Positions 3,111 through 15,145 of a stretch of 55,700 nucleotides of DNA are shown one piece after another. Made by a program: the position numbers and the translations under genes. Source of the stretch: Clostridiaceae bacterium. Its GTDB lineage: Bacteria; Bacillota; Clostridia; Acetivibrionales; DUMB01. Position 1 is the first letter of the stretch, and each line of letters opens with the position of its first letter. The notes below the pieces were generated by a model. The model ran no database searches and was not told the DNA's origin. It worked only from the letters and a program-made list of their open reading frames with translations. The stretch spans positions 1 through 55,700 of the forward strand of contig DULF01000134.1 in assembly GCA_012840535.1 (NCBI GenBank), given 5' to 3'.

Positions 3111-6008
3111 ATGAAAACAAAAGCAAAGCACATATGCTCGTTATTATTAGCATTGTGCCTGACTGCTTCACTATTTGTAGGTACGCCTACGGTAGCAGCA
3201 GCAGAATCTGATATTTGGTTGATGGGGGGTGGAATTGCTGTAGAGGTAGATAATCGCACATCTATAGCTGTTTATCTTGTTGATGAAGCAGGTAATATGA
3301 TACCCCTTACCCAGTCTCTTGATACAGCAGCGCAAACAGGCTATATCAGACTCGATAACACGGATCAGAATAACATCACCGACTTTGTGATGAGCGATTC
3401 AAGTTTAGTACAAAATGTTTCAACAATGAAGGGAAAAGCATTGGGAGATCGTCTTACCGTTAAAGGCATAAGTCAGTCGACTGGTATTATAAGAACGATC
3501 ATTTTAGAAACGGATTATTCAAATCCTAACGTTGTATATATGACAACAAGTTATTGTGCGCCACAGGATACAGAAATTTTTGAGTTTGTTGAAAATGATT
3601 TTGCCGTTATACCCGTAGATCCCCCGGAAACAGGACCTAAGCTTTATGCTTATATGGGCGCGGCAGTTAAATGGGGAGATGATGATGTATTTCCGGTTCC
3701 TAATGGTAGTATCACATCGTGGCCAAATAGATTCTCTGAGTTTGGTGGCACTCCGATTGTTGATCTTTGGAGCAGAGGCGGAGGCATTGCCATAGCATCA
3801 GCTGCAGAAACCAACATTGCCGGTCTTTCACTGCCTGTTAAAAGTGTTGGTGACAATGCGACAGTTAGCATCAGGTGGCGTACACCTACATTTGACTTCA
3901 ATGATGATACGACAAGGATCACCCTTGCAGAAGGAGTTGACACGGTTGCTGGAACCAGTCTTTTAATAGCCCACACAGGTGATTTTTACAACGGTGTAAA
4001 AGCATATGCAGCAGCAATGAAACATTTTGGCGTTGGTGCGCCTCCAATTTCGGAACTTACTGAAGAGGCTTACAGCCCGCGCTGGGAATCCTGGGGATAC
4101 ACAACAAATTGGACAGTAGATACAATAATTAATCAAATACCGATTCTTCAAAGGTTAGGGATAAAAGAGGTCACAATTGATTTTGGTTGGTATATTGAAA
4201 CCAGAAACACAGCTGAAAATAATGGCGTTCCTGGTCCAGGAGTCGGGGACTATATCCCTGACCCGGAAAAGTTTCCTAATGGTGAGGACGATATTCGCAG
4301 GATGGTTAAAGCATGTCATGATGCAGGGATGCTGATTACACTTTGGATTAAATCTTCCAATACAGGTTATACCAACGGTAAATCAGGTGCAGCTTTCATA
4401 GGTACTCCCTCACTACAAATGCAGGAGCAACATGACCCGAGACAGATTCCTCCTTATCTGAACGATCCACACATAGTAATACGCAATCCAGATGGTTCCC
4501 CTAGCTGGGCAAGAACACCTTGGGGCGATGTTAATGATTACCATCTTTGCCTTGCATATGAGCCAGTATGGGACTGGATGAAGAAGTGGGTTGAAAAGGT
4601 TATAACCCCTGAAGACCAATTAACCTCCTATGGAGAAAAAGGCTGGGGCTTTGATGGTTTTAAAAATGACTCAATCGTCAATGCTGCTCCTTGTTATGAT
4701 CCTACTCATAATCACGAGTCTCCTTGGGATCCTGTGCATCAATGGGGTCCATTCCACAAGATGATATATGACACAGCCCGTTCAATCAAGCCGTATGCCC
4801 TTATCGAGATATGCAACTGCGGTGTTCCGCAAAACATATATAATTTTTGTGGTCAGAATCAACCAATTCCAGGCGATTACGCTGGCACATACAGGTCAAG
4901 GCAGGCCCGTTTACGTATTAAGGTGCTAAAAGCAATTTACGGCCCGACTTACCCTGTGCTTGGCGATCATGTTGAACTTGCAGGATTTACTCCAAGTACA
5001 CGCGATTTTGCATACCAGCTTGGTGCAGGTGCTGTACTTGAAACAAAATTCACAACCTTGACAGAATCTGAAGAAGCATACTATAAGAAATGGTTTGATC
5101 TTGGTAATGAACTTAAGCTTTCAAGCGGCGAGTATATAGGCGATCTATACACCTACGGTTTTGACTTCCCGGAGGCCTATGTGATTAAGCAGAACGGTAA
5201 TATGTACTACGCATTCTATACTGCTTATCCAAGGAACGGATATGTTGATTATAATGGTGATGTGGAACTTCGTGGATTGACACCTGGCCAATTCTATAAG
5301 ATTACCGACTATGTAAACGATATTGAATATGGGGTAATAAAAGCGACTTCTTCAACAATCACACTTACCGATGTAAGTTTCACAAATAGCTTACTTCTCT
5401 GTGCGGAGCCCATAACTCCAGATGGAATTGTGTGTGTAAGTGATGCTACAACTTTATCCAATGAGGAAGTTTCTGTTAAAGTAAGTCTTAAGAATTTTGC
5501 AAACATTGGCGGTATAAAGGTTACACTCAATTACGATGCAAGCAAGCTCCAGGTTGAAAATATTGAGCAATCGCCACTTATTACCGGTGCCGTTAATGCA
5601 ACAGAACCTGGAACTATTATATTTAATGCTATTAACGCAGATGGCATACCTGTTGGAGGAACGTCATTCGATGTCGCCACAATAACCTTCAAAGCGGCAA
5701 GTCTTGAGGAAGATGTCCACACACCTGTTTCTATTGTAGCGGTTGAAGCATGTGATGACAACGTGAATCCTCTCCAGACAATCAACGTCGAGAATGGTAG
5801 TGTATGGATTATCTGTGATAAGCTCGGTGATGTAAATAGTGACGGCAGGGTTAACTACATGGATGCACTTATAATACTTAAGAGTATAAACCGCAAGATT
5901 ACTCTAACTGATAGACAGGCTTTCCTTGCTGACTATAACAGAAACAACAGTATCAACATTGACGATGTTATATGTATTTTACGTGCCGATGTCGGACTGC
6001 CTAATTGA
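3111..6008 (+). CDS. secreted clan GH-D (alpha-galactosidase-like) hydrolase with cohesin-like module and dockerin
   Basis: A 965-residue exported enzyme. Signal peptide residues 1-31 (ends PTVAAAES); N-terminal beta-sandwich about 35-320; TIM barrel about 325-670; C-terminal beta domain to about 770; cohesin-like module about 775-900; dockerin 903-965. GH27/GH36-like marks include TIDFGWY, DGFKND (candidate nucleophile D520), EICNCG and PGDYAG (candidate acid/base D589). The dockerin has two F-hand repeats: GDVNSDGRVNYMDA is canonical, the second is weaker (ADYNRNNSINIDD). Start ATG at 3111 follows AGGGAGG by eight bases; a GTG at 3105 is too close. The natural substrate cannot be read from sequence; alpha-galactoside side chains of plant glycans are the simple guess. 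It is paralogous to the gene at 7961. Confidence 0.85.
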   Translation: MKTKAKHICSLLLALCLTASLFVGTPTVAAAESDIWLMGGGIAVEVDNRTSIAVYLVDEAGNMIPLTQSLDTAAQTGYIRLDNTDQNNITDFVMSDSSLVQNVSTMKGKALGDRLTVKGISQSTGIIRTIILETDYSNPNVVYMTTSYCAPQDTEIFEFVENDFAVIPVDPPETGPKLYAYMGAAVKWGDDDVFPVPNGSITSWPNRFSEFGGTPIVDLWSRGGGIAIASAAETNIAGLSLPVKSVGDNATVSIRWRTPTFDFNDDTTRITLAEGVDTVAGTSLLIAHTGDFYNGVKAYAAAMKHFGVGAPPISELTEEAYSPRWESWGYTTNWTVDTIINQIPILQRLGIKEVTIDFGWYIETRNTAENNGVPGPGVGDYIPDPEKFPNGEDDIRRMVKACHDAGMLITLWIKSSNTGYTNGKSGAAFIGTPSLQMQEQHDPRQIPPYLNDPHIVIRNPDGSPSWARTPWGDVNDYHLCLAYEPVWDWMKKWVEKVITPEDQLTSYGEKGWGFDGFKNDSIVNAAPCYDPTHNHESPWDPVHQWGPFHKMIYDTARSIKPYALIEICNCGVPQNIYNFCGQNQPIPGDYAGTYRSRQARLRIKVLKAIYGPTYPVLGDHVELAGFTPSTRDFAYQLGAGAVLETKFTTLTESEEAYYKKWFDLGNELKLSSGEYIGDLYTYGFDFPEAYVIKQNGNMYYAFYTAYPRNGYVDYNGDVELRGLTPGQFYKITDYVNDIEYGVIKATSSTITLTDVSFTNSLLLCAEPITPDGIVCVSDATTLSNEEVSVKVSLKNFANIGGIKVTLNYDASKLQVENIEQSPLITGAVNATEPGTIIFNAINADGIPVGGTSFDVATITFKAASLEEDVHTPVSIVAVEACDDNVNPLQTINVENGSVWIICDKLGDVNSDGRVNYMDALIILKSINRKITLTDRQAFLADYNRNNSINIDDVICILRADVGLPN

Positions 6009-6050
6009 AAAAAATTACGCTAAAAATTTAGCTTGAAAGGGAGAATAACA

Positions 6051-7874
6051 ATGCACAAGAACAAAACTTTATTGCTTGTGACAGCACGCAAAAGACTCAG
6101 TGTATTTATTATACTAGCACTTGTGATTGGCGTTTTGGGGAATACTTTTGCGGCTGAAGAAAACGTACCAACGCTAAAAATAAGTTCCGTAACTGGAAAG
6201 CCTGGTGAACGGGTGACTGTTGAAATATCGGTAGATAATCCACAGGGTATAGCAGGAATGCAGTTTTCAGTGAATTATGATCCGTCAATACTTGCTGTCT
6301 CTGACGCAGATGTCAAAGCAAATACTATTTCTGGGTGGATTTTTGATACAAACGTGATTCAGGAGGAAGGCAAGGTATATTTTGCAGGGGCAAGTGCAAA
6401 TGCAATTACAGTTTCATCGGAGATGACGGTATGCTCTATAGCATTTACAATAAGTAAGAGCGCCGATATCGGTAATACAGAGGTTACCATTGCTGATTTG
6501 TATGTAGCCAATGATGTGCCACAGAAAATTGAGATGAATATTCAAAATGGGAAAATCACCGTAAGCGGAGAAAGTAGCGATCCAGGTAATAATGACCCAG
6601 GAAATAATGATCCAGGTAATAACTATCCCGGTAATAACGTTCCCGGCAGTAAGGAGCAATCATCTACAGAAACAGTTGATGAAAATGCTTCAACTGATAT
6701 CAATGCGCAAACGATAGTAGATAACTTAGGAAATGTAACAGTTTCAGTTACGCAGGATCAAATTAATAATGCTATTTCAGCAGCTGAATTGTCAGCATTA
6801 CCTACTGGTATAAAAATTAAAGCAGATTGTGTAAAAGATGCCATGAAGGTGACGATTAACATCCCGGCACAATCTTTCAGAAAACTTGCTGAAAATGACA
6901 GGATATCATTTGTTTTAATTCAAACGTGTACAGCAACGATAACACTTGACAAGAAGGCATTAGCCAGCATCAGTAATAATGTGACGAGTACAAGCAATAA
7001 TATAAGCATAATAATTGAAAAGGTCAGCAATTCAGCATTTTTGTCAGAAATTAAGAATCAAGTTGGCAACAGACCGGCATACAACTTCTTTGTTTATGTT
7101 GATGATAGAGATGTTCCAAACTTGAGCCAGGGTAATGTTATTATAAGTCTTCCTTACACATTAGCTTCAGAAGATGACCCAAATGCTGTAATTATTTATT
7201 GTATTGATAGAAATGGGAATGCATCCATAGTTCCTAATTGTGTATATGATACAGAAGAAAACGCAGTAGTATTTACAACTTCACGTTTTCTAATGTATGC
7301 AATTGGCTATAACAAAAGAGTATTCTCAGATGTATCCGGATGGGCAACTGATTATATCACTTATCTTGCAGCTCGTGAGATTATCAGCGGAATAGGAGAT
7401 GGTAAATTCGCACCAAATGTAAATATAAAACGTTGTGAGTTTGTTAAGATGCTTGCTGGAATAGCTGGTGCTGATGTAAGTGTTTATAGCGGCAGCAAAT
7501 TTAAGGATGTGAAATCATCTGATTGGTTTGCACCGTACGTAGCTTGGGCTGCAGAGATGGAAATTGTATTCGGTGTTGGTAACGGGATGTTTGCACCTTA
7601 TGACGACATAAGCCGTCAGGATATGGCAGTTATGATAGACCGCTTTGCAATATATGTTAATTATTCTTTGCCAGAAGTTACAGCAGAGGTAACCTTCTCT
7701 GACAATGATAGTATTAAAAGCTATGCACTGGAGGCAGTAAAAAGATTACAACGGGCAGGAATTATCAGCGGTATGAGCGATGGTACATTTGCACCAACTA
7801 AGGGTGCAACACGTGCTGAATCTGCAAAGATGCTTGCAGTATTTCTACAGGGAATGGCTAAGACAATAAAATAA
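6051..7874 (+). CDS. cohesin-containing S-layer anchoring protein (mini-scaffoldin)
   Basis: A 607-residue secreted protein. N-terminal signal or membrane segment at about 12-35; one cohesin at about 40-170 (begins LKISSVTGKPGERVTVEISV, contains FSVNYDPSIL); a PGNN linker at about 177-201; a beta-rich middle region of unknown family to about 410; then three SLH repeats (VFSDVSGWATDYITYLAA, FKDVKSSDWFAPYVAWAA and a third with FSDNDSIKSYALEAV). SLH repeats bind pyruvylated secondary cell-wall polymer, so the single cohesin would be displayed on the cell surface to hold a dockerin-bearing partner. It starts at ATG 6051 after AAAGGGAGA, 42 bases past the first glycosidase, and is probably co-transcribed. 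The two glycosidases around it supply obvious dockerins. Whether this cohesin binds those dockerins is inferred from position. Confidence 0.88.
   Translation: MHKNKTLLLVTARKRLSVFIILALVIGVLGNTFAAEENVPTLKISSVTGKPGERVTVEISVDNPQGIAGMQFSVNYDPSILAVSDADVKANTISGWIFDTNVIQEEGKVYFAGASANAITVSSEMTVCSIAFTISKSADIGNTEVTIADLYVANDVPQKIEMNIQNGKITVSGESSDPGNNDPGNNDPGNNYPGNNVPGSKEQSSTETVDENASTDINAQTIVDNLGNVTVSVTQDQINNAISAAELSALPTGIKIKADCVKDAMKVTINIPAQSFRKLAENDRISFVLIQTCTATITLDKKALASISNNVTSTSNNISIIIEKVSNSAFLSEIKNQVGNRPAYNFFVYVDDRDVPNLSQGNVIISLPYTLASEDDPNAVIIYCIDRNGNASIVPNCVYDTEENAVVFTTSRFLMYAIGYNKRVFSDVSGWATDYITYLAAREIISGIGDGKFAPNVNIKRCEFVKMLAGIAGADVSVYSGSKFKDVKSSDWFAPYVAWAAEMEIVFGVGNGMFAPYDDISRQDMAVMIDRFAIYVNYSLPEVTAEVTFSDNDSIKSYALEAVKRLQRAGIISGMSDGTFAPTKGATRAESAKMLAVFLQGMAKTIK
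6579..6653 (+). repeat. five 15-base tandem repeats encoding a PGNN linker
   Basis: Five consecutive 15-base units encode DPGNN, DPGNN, DPGNN, YPGNN and VPGSK. They form the flexible linker between the cohesin and the middle region. Such units expand and shrink easily by slippage. Confidence 0.85.
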
Positions 7875-7884
7875 GATGCTGGAA

Positions 7885-7922
7885 TTAAATCCAACTGCAC
7901 CATGTGGTGCAGTTGGATTTAA
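7885..7922. promoter_or_regulatory. perfect 17-bp stem-loop between anchoring protein and second glycosidase
   Basis: The arms 7885-7901 (TTAAATCCAACTGCACC) and 7906-7922 pair perfectly around a 4-base loop (ATGT). There is no T-tract after the stem, so it is a poor intrinsic terminator. It could tune transcript stability or processing between the two genes, partly terminate, or both. The second glycosidase starts 38 bases later. Confidence 0.7.
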
Positions 7923-7960
7923 TCACTAAACACAATTTTGAAAGAAAGGAGTTGTTTTTA

Positions 7961-10900
7961 ATGAAGAAAATATGTATTAAATGTACCTTAACTTTTACAA
8001 TTATACTTTGTATATTGCTTACCTCTTTTACCAGCATGGTAACATACGCAGAGGGTACACCTACAATTGCTACGCTTGATGGAGAGGGGATATCTATTTC
8101 TGTTGATTCTAATATGTCAATGACAGTATTCCTTGTTAAACAAGATGGCACTAAAATACAATTGACCCAAAAGCCAGATATGCCAAACCCCTGGTCGACA
8201 TATTCGGATGCCAATACTGCTTCAGCCGTACTTTCAAGTCAGTCCGGTTATGTAACAATAGGCCCTAGCCGTAGCGATGAAGTGGCAATAGATGATTTTG
8301 TACTTACAGATATCAAGAAGGAAACTGACGTAGATACGTACTTCGGAAAAGGTGATCGCCTTACTGTTACTGGTCATAGTGAATCGCTTAATTTAACCCG
8401 TATTATCATTATTGAAACTGCTTATGGACATCCGGGAGTTGTATCTGTAACGTCGAAATACTGCTACGATGGAGATGGGACACTTAAGATCCACAAGTTT
8501 GTAGAGAATAACTATAAAATAGTTGGTGCTCCTCTACCTGAGGTAATTCCAGGTAAGGTTGAAGCATCTCTATGGTCCTGGCAGGGTAGTGCAATAAGAT
8601 GGGGAGCCGATGATCTTATCCCAGTTTACGATACAATGGGCAGTGGCATAGCATCAGACCATGACGTGGATAGAGCTAGGGCATCTGATTTAACTTCCAG
8701 AAACAATAATCTCTGGTCAACCAATGGCGGAACTCCATTTATGGATTTCTATGGTCTTAACGGAGGCATTGGTATTGGTTCTGCAATGCCTTACCATTTA
8801 TACAATTTGGAAATTCCGGTTAAAGGAAGCGGTATTCCTGGTCAGCATGATACTGCTTACACATGGATTGGATGGCCAGGTAAAGAACTACAGGCTGGTG
8901 TTCTTACTGATGTTGGAACAAGCATTGTAGTTGCACACACAGGTGACTTTTATAATGGCTGTCGGGCATATGCAAATGCCATGAAGGAAATCGGCCATTG
9001 TAATATTCCATCTAGCAGCCTACCAGATTGGGCATATGATCCTCACTGGGAAACATGGGGCTATGGCGAGGATTTTCTCCCAGAGATTGTGCTTGCAATG
9101 CTACCTGAACTAAAGTCTCTAGGTGTCAAATCCATAACACTTGATGCAGGTTGGTATAAAAGAGATGAAATAAATGGCGAAGGTATGTATATTCCAGACC
9201 CAGAAAAGTACGCTAACGTAGGAGGCTTTAAAGCCTTTGTCGATGCTATCCATGATGCAGGCCTAAAGGTGCTTGGCTGGTGTGCTCCATCTGTTGGTAG
9301 ACTTGGGGGAACCCCGCTTACTAGTCCGTTAATGGCTCAGCATCCCGATTATTTTATTAGCAGTTCAGCGTCGGAAATCGTACCTGTTAGAGCAGGTGGC
9401 TATTACCCAATCTCAAGTAGATGTTACGATCTCTGCCTTGGAAATCCAGTAGTTCTGGATGACTTTACAACAGATTTTGTAAATTTGTTTATAGGGGAAT
9501 ATGACCTTGATGGATTTAAAATGGATTCAGTATGGGGGACACATCAATGTATGGCAGAAGGACACGGGCATGATGGTGACCCGGATGCGTCAATTAAGGG
9601 TTGGTCTGTATTTTTCAAAAATATTTATGAAAAAGCAAAGGCAATTAAACCTGATGTCATGATTATTAACTGTAATTGTGGTACTCCCATGAATTTTTAT
9701 GATTTCAATGGCACAAACTGGCCAATTCCGGGAGATTGTGTCGGCTCAAGGCAAATGCGTTATCGTATTAAACTTTACAAGGCCTTCTATGGCTCGGATT
9801 TTGCGGTTCTTGGTGACCATCTTTACCTTAGCACTCTCAGAAACTATAATGAGGGCACAAGACCAGGTCCTGTTGATTTTATTTCCTACTTTGGTACAGG
9901 TGCAGTTTTAGATACAAAATATATTTCGTTGAAATATGGTGAACTTAACGAAGATACCGATCTTCCTAAATCAAAAGCTATGAGATATCCTGGGGACCCA
10001 GATTATGATACTGCCGTATTCAAATTTGGAGATTTCCAGAGATGGTTCAGCCTCTATAACGATTTGAAACTTTCAAATGGTGAATTTATTGGTGACCTTT
10101 ATATGTATGGATTTGATTATCCAGAAGCATACGTAATAAAGAAAAATAATAATATGTTCTATGCGTTCTACGCCACAGACAATTCAGTTGCGAACTTCAA
10201 AGCGAACACTTCAGCTCCGGTTGTTGATCCTTGGGGCAGCAATTATGTCAGTGCCAATACATACAACGGAGATGTGGAGCTTCGTGGGTTGGTGCCTGGT
10301 CAGTTCTATAAAATTACCGACTATATAAATAATGTCGACTATGGGGTAATAGAAGCGACCTCTTCAACAATCACGCTCCCGAACGTAAATTTCACAACAG
10401 GATTGCTTCTCTGTGCAGAGCCTGTATCTTCAAACGGATCTGTAGTTGTAAGTGAGGCCAGGACAGTAGCTAATAGTAATATTGATATTAAAGTAAGTCT
10501 TAAAAATTTTGCTAATGTTGGTGGCATAAAGGTTACACTAAATTACGATGCAAGTAAGCTTCAGGTTGAAAATGTTGAACAATCACCTCTTGTGTTTGGT
10601 GCTGTCAACACAGAAGAACCTGGAACCATTATATTCAATGCAATTAAGTCTGATGGTATACCTGTAGGTGAAACATCTTTCGATGTTGCCACTATAACCT
10701 TTAAGGTAGCAGATTCTGTTGAAGATGGCTTTATACCTATAATTATTGCAGAAGTTGAAGCATGCGATGACAATGTAGATCCCCTTCCTGCAATCAATAA
10801 AGTAAATGGTGGTATATGGATTTATAGTGGTGAGCCAGGAGATGTAAATAGTGATGGAAAAGTTAATTTTATGGATGCACTTATAATACTTAAGAGTATT

Positions 10901-11014
10901 AATAATAAGATTACTCTAACTGATAAGCAGACTCTCCTTGCTGACTATGATGGAAATGGTATTATTAATATCGAGGACGTTATAGCTATCTTGCGTTTTG
11001 ATGTTGGGTTATAA
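7961..11014 (+). CDS. second secreted clan GH-D (alpha-galactosidase-like) hydrolase with cohesin-like module and dockerin
   Basis: A 1017-residue paralogue of the gene at 3111 with the same layout: signal peptide (about 1-30, ending VTYAEG), beta-sandwich, TIM barrel, C-terminal beta domain, cohesin-like module (about 828-950) and dockerin (last 60 residues; GDVNSDGKVNFMDA and LADYDGNGIINIED). Candidate nucleophile is D522 in DGFKMD; candidate acid/base is D592 in PGDCVG. The start is ATG 7961 after AAGAAAGGAG; an upstream GTG at 7904 sits inside the stem-loop and is unlikely. The C-terminal third is very close to the first enzyme even at DNA level, while the barrel has diverged. That pattern suggests duplication followed by a shift in substrate range, or recent exchange of the shared tail. 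Confidence 0.85.
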   Translation: MKKICIKCTLTFTIILCILLTSFTSMVTYAEGTPTIATLDGEGISISVDSNMSMTVFLVKQDGTKIQLTQKPDMPNPWSTYSDANTASAVLSSQSGYVTIGPSRSDEVAIDDFVLTDIKKETDVDTYFGKGDRLTVTGHSESLNLTRIIIIETAYGHPGVVSVTSKYCYDGDGTLKIHKFVENNYKIVGAPLPEVIPGKVEASLWSWQGSAIRWGADDLIPVYDTMGSGIASDHDVDRARASDLTSRNNNLWSTNGGTPFMDFYGLNGGIGIGSAMPYHLYNLEIPVKGSGIPGQHDTAYTWIGWPGKELQAGVLTDVGTSIVVAHTGDFYNGCRAYANAMKEIGHCNIPSSSLPDWAYDPHWETWGYGEDFLPEIVLAMLPELKSLGVKSITLDAGWYKRDEINGEGMYIPDPEKYANVGGFKAFVDAIHDAGLKVLGWCAPSVGRLGGTPLTSPLMAQHPDYFISSSASEIVPVRAGGYYPISSRCYDLCLGNPVVLDDFTTDFVNLFIGEYDLDGFKMDSVWGTHQCMAEGHGHDGDPDASIKGWSVFFKNIYEKAKAIKPDVMIINCNCGTPMNFYDFNGTNWPIPGDCVGSRQMRYRIKLYKAFYGSDFAVLGDHLYLSTLRNYNEGTRPGPVDFISYFGTGAVLDTKYISLKYGELNEDTDLPKSKAMRYPGDPDYDTAVFKFGDFQRWFSLYNDLKLSNGEFIGDLYMYGFDYPEAYVIKKNNNMFYAFYATDNSVANFKANTSAPVVDPWGSNYVSANTYNGDVELRGLVPGQFYKITDYINNVDYGVIEATSSTITLPNVNFTTGLLLCAEPVSSNGSVVVSEARTVANSNIDIKVSLKNFANVGGIKVTLNYDASKLQVENVEQSPLVFGAVNTEEPGTIIFNAIKSDGIPVGETSFDVATITFKVADSVEDGFIPIIIAEVEACDDNVDPLPAINKVNGGIWIYSGEPGDVNSDGKVNFMDALIILKSINNKITLTDKQTLLADYDGNGIINIEDVIAILRFDVGL

Positions 11015-11571: not shown

Positions 11572-12942
11572 CTATTCCATTACTCTCTTTAATTGTTCTT
11601 CTATACTCTTAAGACCATCTTCTACAGAGGTTTGACCTATTAGTATGTTTTGAACTTCAACTTGGATTATGTTAGCAAACTGGTCGTACCAGGTGATATC
11701 AGGCAAACCTCTGGCGTTTTCGGCCTGTTTTCCGAAATTCTCCCAATACGGGTAGAGTTTTAGGAGGTCAGGATCGTTGTACAACTCTTTCCATATCGGA
11801 AGAGCTCCTATTTCAAGCGCTTTTCTCTTGTCAAATTCCTTGCTGGACATATACCTGATATACTTCCATGCATTTTCCTTATTTTTGCTTGTAGCCGGTA
11901 TAGCCATAGCTTCAGGCAGTGTTAACACTATATTTGTTTTCTCATCAACACCGATTGCATAAGGAGCTACTTCTATCTGTCCTACAATCTGTGAAACGCT
12001 GGGGTCATTGGCGTAAGCATAAACTCCTGGCCATGCTTGCAGGAAAAATGCCGTATCTCCTTTAAAGAATACATTGGCAATAGCTTCGTAATCCGAGGTA
12101 AGTGAAGCCGGATCAATAAACTTATCTTCATTCAAACCCTTTTGCAAGAACTCCAATGCATTTTTGACTCCAGGATCGCTTGCGATAATAAGGTTGCCAT
12201 TTTCATCAAAATAGTTTCCGCCAAAGGAGTAAATTGCATATGTTATTTCATTGACACCTACCTGGGATTGCGGGTAAGCATCAATAAAACCGTATTTTGC
12301 TATACCTTTTTCCTGCAGTATTTTTGAGTATTCCTTCACTTCAGCCCATGTCTTGGGTGGTTTTGATATACCGGCGTCTTCAAGCATCTTTTTATTGTAC
12401 ATGAAGAACCTTGTATCGTTATTCCAAGCAACCCCATAAAACTTTCCACCAATAGAGAACTTATTCACTAATCCTGATAAAAGGCCGTTCTTTATTTCAT
12501 CAGCGCCTTCGTAACCGTCTAAGGGTTCCAACCAGTTGTTTTTGTTGAATTTTGCAACCCATGCGTTGTCAAATTCAACAACATCGTAAGAACTTCCTCC
12601 GGCGGCCATTTCCTGGGTAACCCTTTCTGCTACGTTTTCCCATGCCATATTTATAAGTTCAACTTTTACACCCGATTCACTTTCAAATTGTCTGGTCTCT
12701 TTTTCCCAGAAACCCTTGGTATCCATTTCGTGTTTTGGAAGCAAGACCGTTATTTTTTGCTCGCCCGAAGTTGCCTGGCTTCCACTGTCTTGCGTATCTT
12801 GCTGAGCAGGTTGTCCTGAGTCGGTTGACTTACTGCTATCACCTGTTTCACTTGACTTTCCACAACCGGTTAATATAAGGCTTGCTACTAATAACACAAT
12901 TGTCATTAGGGTAAAAAGCTTAACGAACCTTGACTTTAACAT
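11572..12942 (-). CDS. sugar ABC transporter substrate-binding lipoprotein (CUT1 / family 1)
   Basis: A 456-residue lipoprotein: a signal sequence ending in the lipobox LILTGCGKSS, a Ser/Thr/Gln-rich tether (about 28-60), then a bacterial family 1 solute-binding fold (EFDNAWVAKFNKNNWLEPLD, FYGVAWNNDTRFFMYNKK, FFLQAWPGVYAY). It should capture an oligosaccharide outside the membrane and deliver it to the two permeases encoded upstream. The start ATG at 12942 follows AAGGAGG by nine bases. Gene order on the minus strand is permease, permease, binding protein, with no ATPase gene. CUT1 systems often share an MsmK-type ATPase encoded elsewhere. Position suggests the glycosidase products as cargo. 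Confidence 0.88.
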   Translation of the reverse strand: MLKSRFVKLFTLMTIVLLVASLILTGCGKSSETGDSSKSTDSGQPAQQDTQDSGSQATSGEQKITVLLPKHEMDTKGFWEKETRQFESESGVKVELINMAWENVAERVTQEMAAGGSSYDVVEFDNAWVAKFNKNNWLEPLDGYEGADEIKNGLLSGLVNKFSIGGKFYGVAWNNDTRFFMYNKKMLEDAGISKPPKTWAEVKEYSKILQEKGIAKYGFIDAYPQSQVGVNEITYAIYSFGGNYFDENGNLIIASDPGVKNALEFLQKGLNEDKFIDPASLTSDYEAIANVFFKGDTAFFLQAWPGVYAYANDPSVSQIVGQIEVAPYAIGVDEKTNIVLTLPEAMAIPATSKNKENAWKYIRYMSSKEFDKRKALEIGALPIWKELYNDPDLLKLYPYWENFGKQAENARGLPDITWYDQFANIIQVEVQNILIGQTSVEDGLKSIEEQLKRVME

Positions 12943-13074
12943 TTTTTTTACCTCCTTGAAATTTTAATAAATTACAGCCACAGCATAGTTGTTGTTATTA
13001 GGGTAAAGCATCAGGATAAATATAGTAATGTACCCCTCCGCTTCTTACAAGAATTACCACCTCCTTTTTGTTTT

Positions 13075-13941
13075 TTAGCCCTTAATTGCACCTGCTGTGA
13101 GACCGGCTATAATGTATTTCTGGAATACTAGTGCTAATAATACAGGAGGGAGACTTGCTATTACACCTCCCGTGCTTGTCATAATATAGTCAGCTCCATG
13201 CTTGCTGCTGAACTCGGTTATGACTACGGGAAGCGTCTTGGCTCTTATTGTAGATGTAAAGTTCAATGCGTAGAAAAACTCATTCCACGCGATTATAAAC
13301 GCAAATATTGTTGTTGCTGCCAGCCCTGGGGATGCCAATGGGAGTATTATCCTTACGAAGGATTTCATTCTTGAGCAGCCGTCAATTCTTGCCGATTCCT
13401 CAAGTTCAACGGGAATACTGGCAAGATAGCCTTTCATAATCCAGATTACAAATGGCAATACAAGTGAAAGATAAACTATAATTAAGCTTATTTTTTTATC
13501 CATCATATTAAACTTAAGAAGCAGCATATACATAGGAATAATAAGTGCTATAGGCGGTACCATCTGCGTAAGCAGGATCAAGTAGAATGAAGGTTTCTTA
13601 AATCTGAATCTCATTCTGGCAAAGGCGTATGCAGCCAAAAGTCCTACAACCATTGACAGTGCAGTAACGGATATTGCTACTACAGCGCTATTTGCCAAGG
13701 CATATTTAAATTGGCTTGCAGCATCTGTAGTGCTGCTGCTGGTACCCGCAAGAATTGTATAATAGTTTTCCAAAGTGGGTTTTCTTGGTATCCAGTTTAG
13801 CGGAACCTTTAACAAGTCAGCCTTTGTAGATATGCTTGAAATAATCAGCCAAAGATAAGGCGCCAATACGTAAATTACTATCAGAGCAGCAAGTATATAA
13901 ATAACCGCCCTGTTAATAATCTTTCTGGTATTGCTTCTCAT
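13075..13941 (-). CDS. CUT1 sugar ABC permease (MalG/YcjP-like)
   Basis: A 288-residue inner-membrane protein with six predicted helices and the permease EAA loop (ELEESARIDGCSRMKSFVRI) that docks the ATPase. It follows the first permease after 45 bases. The ATG at 13941 has ATAGGAGGGC just upstream, so I take it over the TTG at 13983. It is the MalG-type partner because it ends in the characteristic FQKYIIAGLTAGAIKG. Confidence 0.9.
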   Translation of the reverse strand: MRSNTRKIINRAVIYILAALIVIYVLAPYLWLIISSISTKADLLKVPLNWIPRKPTLENYYTILAGTSSSTTDAASQFKYALANSAVVAISVTALSMVVGLLAAYAFARMRFRFKKPSFYLILLTQMVPPIALIIPMYMLLLKFNMMDKKISLIIVYLSLVLPFVIWIMKGYLASIPVELEESARIDGCSRMKSFVRIILPLASPGLAATTIFAFIIAWNEFFYALNFTSTIRAKTLPVVITEFSSKHGADYIMTSTGGVIASLPPVLLALVFQKYIIAGLTAGAIKG

Positions 13942-13986
13942 ATACAGCCCTCCTATAAAGGTATACGTGTGTGAGAATTGCAAATG

Positions 13987-14913
13987 CTAAATTATTTCTC
14001 CCTCTTTTGAAAGGGATTTTATATATAAATATGATAGTAAGAATGTTACAAGTGTTAGTATGTAAGCCATTGCAGAGCCATAACCGAACTCTAAAAACTT
14101 AAATGTAGACTTGTGGATGTAATAGGTTATAAGCTCGGTTCCGCCTGCCGGCCCGCCAGCGGTTAATATATATACAAGGTCAAAGGTCTGTATAGCCCAA
14201 ATTGTTTTTGTTATTGTAAGTATTAGTATTACAGGCTTTATCATTGGCAAAGTGATTTTCCAGAAAGACCTCCATCCGCCGGCACCATCGACTTTTGCCG
14301 ATTCATACAGCTCTTTTGGTATTGTTGAAAGCCCTGCTAAAGCCAAAAGGACAACATATGGCGTTTCCTTCCATATGTTGGCGAATATCATGAGATTTAA
14401 AGCTGAAGAAGGATTTCCAAGCCATACTTGATACTCTTTAATGATCCCTAATTGTGAAAGCAGTGCATTTAGCGCTCCGTAATTTGAGTTGTAAATCCAC
14501 TTCCACATAATACCGTTTACAACACCCGGGAGAGCCCAGGGGAGGATCATTATTCCTCTTACAAATCCTCTGCCTTTGAAATCCTGCTTTAACACCAGAG
14601 CCATTGCGGTACCGAGCACAATTTCAGCAAATACGGTAACTATAGTAAAATATATTGTCAGTCTGATAGCGTTAAAAAAATATTTGTCTGTAAACATGTT
14701 CAGGTAATTCTTGAGACCTGCAAATTCAAATTGCCTTTGAGCAAAATTAATTTTGTTAAAACTCATGTACAATGAATAGCAGATTGGATAAATGAGGACT
14801 CCGAATACTATTATGATACTAGGTAAAATCAATAGCAAGGCTAAATTCTTATTAGAGTCGGAGAAAGACAAGTTTCTTAGTAGTGCATTTCTTTTTTTTA
14901 TATCCGGCAGCAT
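13987..14913 (-). CDS. CUT1 sugar ABC permease (MalF/UgpA-like)
   Basis: A 309-residue membrane protein, first gene of the CUT1 operon. It has an N-terminal helix after a cytoplasmic tail, the WKWIYNSNYGALN periplasmic motif typical of MalF/UgpA permeases, and the EAA loop ELYESAKVDGAGGWRSFWKI. The ATG at 14913 is preceded by GGGTGAT; an in-frame GTG at 14925 is an alternative. Upstream of it (14926-15145) the DNA is very AT-rich, with repeated TTAGTA/TACTAA sequences that could be operators, but I cannot define a clear promoter. Confidence 0.88.
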   Translation of the reverse strand: MLPDIKKRNALLRNLSFSDSNKNLALLLILPSIIIVFGVLIYPICYSLYMSFNKINFAQRQFEFAGLKNYLNMFTDKYFFNAIRLTIYFTIVTVFAEIVLGTAMALVLKQDFKGRGFVRGIMILPWALPGVVNGIMWKWIYNSNYGALNALLSQLGIIKEYQVWLGNPSSALNLMIFANIWKETPYVVLLALAGLSTIPKELYESAKVDGAGGWRSFWKITLPMIKPVILILTITKTIWAIQTFDLVYILTAGGPAGGTELITYYIHKSTFKFLEFGYGSAMAYILTLVTFLLSYLYIKSLSKEGEII

Positions 14914-15145
14914 TTTATCACCCACTCAGCAAAATAATTATTAAATTTTGTTAAATAAATTTTACCAAGTAATAAATTCTAATGTCCCTGCCAAAACTAA
15001 ACATTAATTTATTATTATTATATTTGAGATGAAATAAATACTAAATTATTTATTAACTTTACTAATTAATATATATTCTGCGAAAGTACAAAAAATCCTG
15101 CATATGTTTTTGAAATTTTAAAATTTTTTATACCTTGGAAATTTG

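Follow-up and report, generated by a model that had tools for sequence, protein, structure and literature searches.

What can a cell-wall anchor with a single cohesin display when both enzymes encoded beside it carry a cohesin as well as a dockerin? The question is raised by a 55,700-nucleotide stretch (the window) of contig DULF01000134.1 from a Clostridiaceae bacterium (assembly GCA_012840535.1), where three open reading frames (ORFs), encoding enzyme 1, an SLH anchor and enzyme 2, occupy positions 3111–11014 of the forward strand. A first-pass annotation, made from the letters alone, had described these ORFs with their domains, common strand and short spacing, all of which was borne out by Pfam searches and ORF calls. 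Its reading of the locus as a self-contained, single-cohesin display on the wall is supported by the cohesin census reported here, by published enzyme-linked immunosorbent assays (ELISA) on a homologue (PMC5590126, PMC6507058) and by recurrence in relatives. We propose, at even confidence, that the locus encodes a stand-alone, wall-tethered two-enzyme display, with modules of the type found in group R of Pseudobacteroides cellulosolvens and with short mixed chains of the enzymes.

Docking modules of the three-gene unit

Enzyme 1 (3111–6008) comprises a signal peptide, a GH36-like, FpGalNase-like catalytic region (3183–5423), a cohesin (5442–5801; Pfam/HMMER E 8e-12) and a C-terminal Dockerin_1 domain (5823–6005; Pfam E 4e-8). 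Enzyme 2 (7961–11014) has the same layout, with a GH36-like catalytic region at 8009–10429, a cohesin at 10442–10813 (E 6e-13) and a Dockerin_1 at 10835–11011 (E 3e-8). In each enzyme, only a few residues separate the C-terminal cohesin and dockerin. In the anchor (6051–7874), a signal peptide is followed by one cohesin (6171–6563; E 2e-17), a P/N-rich linker and an unnamed domain; then come three SLH repeats (7323–7820, at 7323–7442, 7497–7628 and 7695–7820; E 5e-37), which, like the single cohesin, had been noted before. All cohesin, dockerin and SLH scores exceeded the curated Pfam cut-offs. The anchor frame opens with TTG at 6033 and that of enzyme 2 with GTG at 7904, while an ATG with a ribosome-binding site lies at 6051 and 7961, respectively; in all three ORFs, a sequence resembling a ribosome-binding site is followed by a signal-peptide-like stretch, the signal peptides being judged by eye. 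Since stop-to-ATG gaps of 42 bp (enzyme 1/anchor) and 86 bp (anchor/enzyme 2) separate the genes on one strand, the three are likely to form a single operon.

The enzyme-borne modules had been called cohesin-like; they are indeed present, but the Pfam scores and, for enzyme 2, the modelled type I fold identify them as genuine cohesins. The structure predicted for the cohesin–dockerin tandem reached a pLDDT of 83 and a pTM of 0.75 (pLDDT 54 in an earlier model), and the modelled cohesin of enzyme 2 matched type I cohesins with Z ~18 over ~130 residues and a root mean square deviation of 1.9–2.0, a comparison that informs on the cohesin and barely tests the dockerin part. In a tree of 53 cohesins, both enzyme cohesins grouped with six group R-type cohesins (support 95/98). 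Less firmly (88/62), the anchor cohesin joined those of two other single-cohesin SLH anchors, each with three SLH repeats, from genomes G028 (423 amino acids) and G026 (612 amino acids). The R-type enzyme cohesins and this anchor set together formed one clade (92/95).

The dockerins of the window were 36–52% identical to most group R-type dockerins (30–32% to one from G026), sharing with most of them an aromatic residue at position 10 of the first repeat; identity to the other dockerins of their own genome, on contigs 163 and 34, amounted to 20–24%. They are nearer to the Xyn10B type of C. thermocellum than to the C. perfringens type. Calcium-loop residues are intact in both. As the recognition positions are nearly the same in the two enzymes (YM/FM in repeat 1, ID/IE in repeat 2), the two dockerins should, to judge from sequence, be interchangeable. 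Since repeat 1 and repeat 2 are not alike, the dockerins probably lack a symmetric dual-binding code.

Over the last ~270 residues, the two enzymes share ~70% of their amino acids and a third-position identity of ~0.6; upstream, the values are ~40% and ~0.35. After the catalytic parts had diverged, the docking end thus seems to have undergone exchange between the two genes or homogenisation by gene conversion. Stronger constraint would be an alternative, one that suits the amino acids better than the third positions. The likeness fits one shared docking specificity for both enzymes.

Group R kinship and genomic setting

A profile search across 58 genomes of the order returned G028, G019, G005 and G026 as the best relatives of the cohesin–dockerin end. 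With 81 cohesin matches and neighbouring proteins of 11 and 10 cohesins, G028 is very probably P. cellulosolvens. Three of its proteins carry both modules, and one of them (867 amino acids) has a GH44 domain and is encoded 8 kb away from a protein with three cohesins. Group R (ScaR1–3) was reported in 2017, with ScaR3 near ScaS (PMC5590126), and ScaR3 contains GH44 (PMC6780208); because the GH44 domain and the 8-kb distance from the three-cohesin gene match the published ScaR3/ScaS, we recognise the 867-residue protein as ScaR3. Since the nearest relatives of the window enzymes include this protein, the enzymes carry group R-type modules, and both their cohesins and their dockerins fall within the group R-type set. 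ELISA showed strong binding of the ScaR3 dockerin to the one cohesin of ScaF1, through which the authors took group R to be linked to the cell surface (PMC5590126); ScaF1 is an SLH anchor with a single cohesin (PMC6507058). Because of this published binding to a single-cohesin SLH anchor, surface display of the window enzymes is likely by analogy. By homology, their dockerins would with high probability bind the anchor in the source organism.

The two systems have the cohesin clade in common, together with similar dockerins, an enzyme domain, a cohesin and a dockerin in each protein, and a single-cohesin SLH anchor. They differ in that the ScaR system is part of a cellulosome of about 80 cohesins, whereas the window unit consists of three genes in a genome whose search yielded no scaffoldin. 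Furthermore, the ScaR proteins have a domain, PF23197, between their two docking modules, while cohesin and dockerin are directly joined in the GH36-like enzymes of the window.

The source assembly (3.19 Mb, 240 contigs, 96.7% complete) contained six cohesins in six proteins, one each, in a genome-wide profile search, in line with the earlier view of a system distinct from a multi-cohesin scaffold. Three dockerins scored above the cut-off, and a weak one was found in a 1773-residue protein of contig 163. All four dockerin proteins carry a cohesin of their own and none without a cohesin was found in the genome, which leaves the enzyme cohesins without another obvious dockerin partner. By definition, both enzymes are monovalent adaptors (one dockerin plus one cohesin per protein), and the anchor qualifies as an SLH-anchoring scaffoldin, a class that requires one or more cohesins together with SLH domains. 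A conventional cellulosome was considered and rejected, as the genome-wide search yielded no multi-cohesin protein and hence no scaffoldin of the kind that characterises a cellulosome.

The unit is no one-off, an idea contradicted by a second locus in the same genome and by the many relatives with one. On contig 163, a 633-residue protein with a cohesin and three SLH repeats is followed by the 1773-residue protein, whose end consists of a cohesin, a stretch matching the FIVAR-dockerin-type region of C. perfringens 2jnk/2ozn (E 3e-19) and the dockerin; the N-terminal part aligned marginally with the window enzymes, and we make no claim to clan GH-D for it. This second locus of anchor–enzyme design (L011 3426–11235) adjoins a sugar ABC importer. 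On contig 34 (L010 3541–4967), a cohesin–dockerin protein likewise adjoins ABC importer genes, and its N-terminal part seems to be split over overlapping frames (3541–3819 and 3777–4967) by a frameshift or an assembly error.

Cohesins were present in 26 of 40 relatives. Nine genomes, the window's included, were picked for a low cohesin count, and regions for cohesin or dockerin matches, so that the following numbers are a census of such loci rather than of all genomes: a cohesin is present in 23 of 26 dockerin proteins, and each of the eight single-cohesin proteins with three SLH repeats directly adjoins a cohesin–dockerin gene. Single-cohesin SLH anchors next to cohesin–dockerin genes are thus a layout found repeatedly across the order. 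In G026, which belongs to another family, the gene order is enzyme, enzyme, anchor (a 1881-residue cohesin–dockerin protein, a 565-residue dockerin protein and the 612-residue anchor). Attached domains vary among the relatives, GH2 and GH53 included. Matches across the whole tandem were rare when 398 genomes of the phylum were sampled. Another system on this plan, distinct in sequence, occurs widely in the order, and its anchor and enzyme cohesins also formed sister clades in the tree.

Among the relatives, G001 (L124 1719–11471, L125 3–3629) encodes a GH2 protein with two cohesins and a dockerin, a GH53 protein, an anchor with a cohesin and three SLH repeats, and a GH2-type cohesin–dockerin protein; the cluster around one anchor suggests a surface beta-galactan system. 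A variant in G023 (L138 5153–11003) combines a cohesin and three SLH repeats in one large protein, next to a gene for a dockerin without a cohesin. Most group R-type proteins of the relatives (L202, L203, L205, L206, L207) bear phosphoesterase, nucleotidase, PHP-like or phosphodiester-glycosidase domains, not cellulases. The R system may therefore have a part in other kinds of scavenging at the surface.

Possible modes of enzyme display

The first-pass annotation had allowed for competition between the two enzymes or for assembly through their own cohesin-like modules, and both enter the models below. In the arrangement that we propose, the SLH protein would sit non-covalently on the cell wall and its single cohesin would capture the dockerin of either enzyme. 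The exposed cohesin of the captured enzyme could in turn bind a further enzyme by its dockerin, so that short mixed chains, rather than one enzyme per anchor, would grow from each anchor. The enzymes would trim an alpha-linked sugar off a glycan, and the neighbouring sugar ABC importer may take up the released product. We consider chain growth through the enzyme cohesins to fall slightly short of an even chance; it is favoured by the conservation of these cohesins, by their sister relationship to the anchor cohesins and by the failure to find cohesin-free dockerin proteins in the genome. More tentatively, the wall anchor might seed a self-propagating co-polymer, a linear enzyme chain in which each enzyme provides plug and socket and no scaffoldin is needed.

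Several observations weigh against this proposal. Enzyme and anchor cohesins are only 21–24% identical, and a dockerin that binds one kind may therefore not bind the other. In a C. perfringens GH31 protein with both modules, the cohesin bound no dockerin in ELISA (PMC12997984), which by analogy disfavours chain growth. The binding data come from the P. cellulosolvens homologue and not from the source organism; proteomics of P. cellulosolvens did not pick up ScaR3 (PMC6507058), and ScaF1 was not matched to a particular G028 protein. Finally, a scaffoldin could be missing from an assembly of such completeness and contig number.

The rival that survives best, although we deem it rather unlikely, is plain one-to-one display, in which the anchor cohesin holds one enzyme, the enzymes compete, and the enzyme cohesin acts as a spacer, is self-docked in the free protein or does not bind at all. 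It would accord with the single cohesin of the anchor and with the C. perfringens GH31 cohesin, which bound no dockerin and for which AlphaFold3 predicted binding to its own dockerin (PMC12997984). The few residues between cohesin and dockerin in the window enzymes can be counted in its favour, yet so short a linker may equally hinder self-docking. In genomes with few cohesins, 23 of the 26 dockerin proteins retain the enzyme cohesin, which speaks against this rival, as do the predicted full type I fold of the enzyme cohesin and its sister position to the anchor cohesins.

We regard it as improbable that the enzymes are monovalent adaptor scaffoldins whose cohesins recruit proteins with dockerins of a different kind, from their own genome or from neighbour bacteria. 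In known cellulosomes, a protein that combines a single dockerin with a single cohesin is indeed read as a type-switching adaptor, and scavenging of foreign dockerin proteins has been proposed for Paenibacillus guangzhouensis (PMC11557425). In the genome at hand, however, a cohesin-free dockerin protein was not found, and the dockerins of contigs 163 and 34, which are of another type, have matching cohesins at their own loci. Least probable by far are non-functional modules, inherited remnants on free enzymes: binding is known from the homologue and not from the source organism, but the calcium loops are intact, the dockerin of ScaR3 binds the anchor ScaF1 in vitro, and single-cohesin SLH anchors adjoin cohesin–dockerin genes in all eight low-cohesin-genome cases and in G026.

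The overall plan of the proposed two-enzyme display, cohesin–dockerin glycosidases with SLH anchors, is already known, both from the group R proteins and from P. guangzhouensis, for which it was reported in 2024 (PMC11557425). The latter resembles the window in having enzymes with one cohesin and one dockerin, nearly all of its dockerins in cohesin proteins, SLH anchors and no large scaffoldin; it differs in its 28 cohesin–dockerin proteins, five anchors and other GH families. In C. perfringens complexes (PMC12997984; PDB 2jnk/2ozn), single-cohesin glycosidases bind dockerin glycosidases and one protein has both modules; there, cohesin and dockerin mostly reside on separate enzymes, whereas each window enzyme carries both. 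In the literature on FIVAR, noncellulosomal and polymerising cohesin/dockerin proteins, we found no direct description of an operon of this type. What is new is a group R-type unit of three genes that stands alone and encodes GH36-like enzymes, together with its recurrence and the evidence for two separate systems on one design. In its original description, group R comprised three unusual proteins of the most complex cellulosome known, a setting in which their role is hard to isolate. The three-gene unit represents a small model for asking whether enzymes with both modules form polymers on the cell surface. A positive answer would open a route to scaffold-free multi-enzyme surfaces; a negative one would call for another explanation of why the enzyme cohesin is retained.

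Catalytic regions, neighbouring genes and hairpin

Melibiase (GH36) scores of 20.0 and 24.8 bits were below the curated Pfam cut-off of 27, and the label GH36-like is used here for this reason. A phmmer search against solved FpGalNase-type chains gave E ~1e-80 (enzyme 1) and ~1e-74 (enzyme 2), the likeness spanning most of the catalytic region. FpGalNase is a GH36 galactosaminidase of Flavonifractor plautii with a structure from cryo-electron microscopy (PDB 9awt; PMC11762096). Both enzymes keep counterparts of its residues W317, D346, K461, D463, C513 and D532 (numbering checked), D463 and D532 corresponding to D520 and D589 in enzyme 1 and to D522 and D592 in enzyme 2. The sequence match to a solved GH36 structure and the retained catalytic Asp residues speak for membership of both enzymes in GH36 and clan GH-D. 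However, D347 is replaced by Phe in enzyme 1 and by Ala in enzyme 2, and Y464 by Ser in both; accordingly, TLDDGW is replaced by TIDFGW and TLDAGW, respectively. D346 and D347 are listed as conserved with a GH36 alpha-galactosidase (PMC11762096), and neither window enzyme has the active-site Asp-Asp pair of classical alpha-galactosidases.

As most active-site equivalents are kept, both enzymes look active; with D347 and Y464 replaced, they need not be alpha-galactosidases. The substrates suggested by the first-pass annotation find no support, the nearest characterised enzyme being a galactosaminidase and one of two conserved Asp residues being replaced in both enzymes. For predicted substrates, raffinose and galactomannan are thus no longer obvious choices, and that reading is weakened. 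Within the order, the catalytic domain is seldom encountered: of the 58 genomes searched, one other has it. As a query, the domain retrieved 16 contigs, mostly from other phyla, and in none of the 16 did the matching ORF contain a cohesin or dockerin.

Upstream of the cluster lie genes for a ROK-type regulator (162–1355) and, on the opposite strand, an AzlC-family membrane protein (1697–2398); the sugar ABC importer (11572–14925) is located downstream, also on the opposite strand. An Rfam search of the window gave no match, and promoter- or terminator-like sites across the operon were no commoner than in shuffles. The gap between the anchor gene and enzyme 2 contains a perfect 19-bp inverted repeat (7884–7923) with a folding z of −6.9 against shuffles. 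Intergenic stem-loops help to set cellulosome subunit ratios in R. cellulolyticum (PMC4423207). An mRNA-stabilising or attenuating role of the hairpin is possible, and by analogy it could raise the anchor and enzyme 1 relative to enzyme 2.

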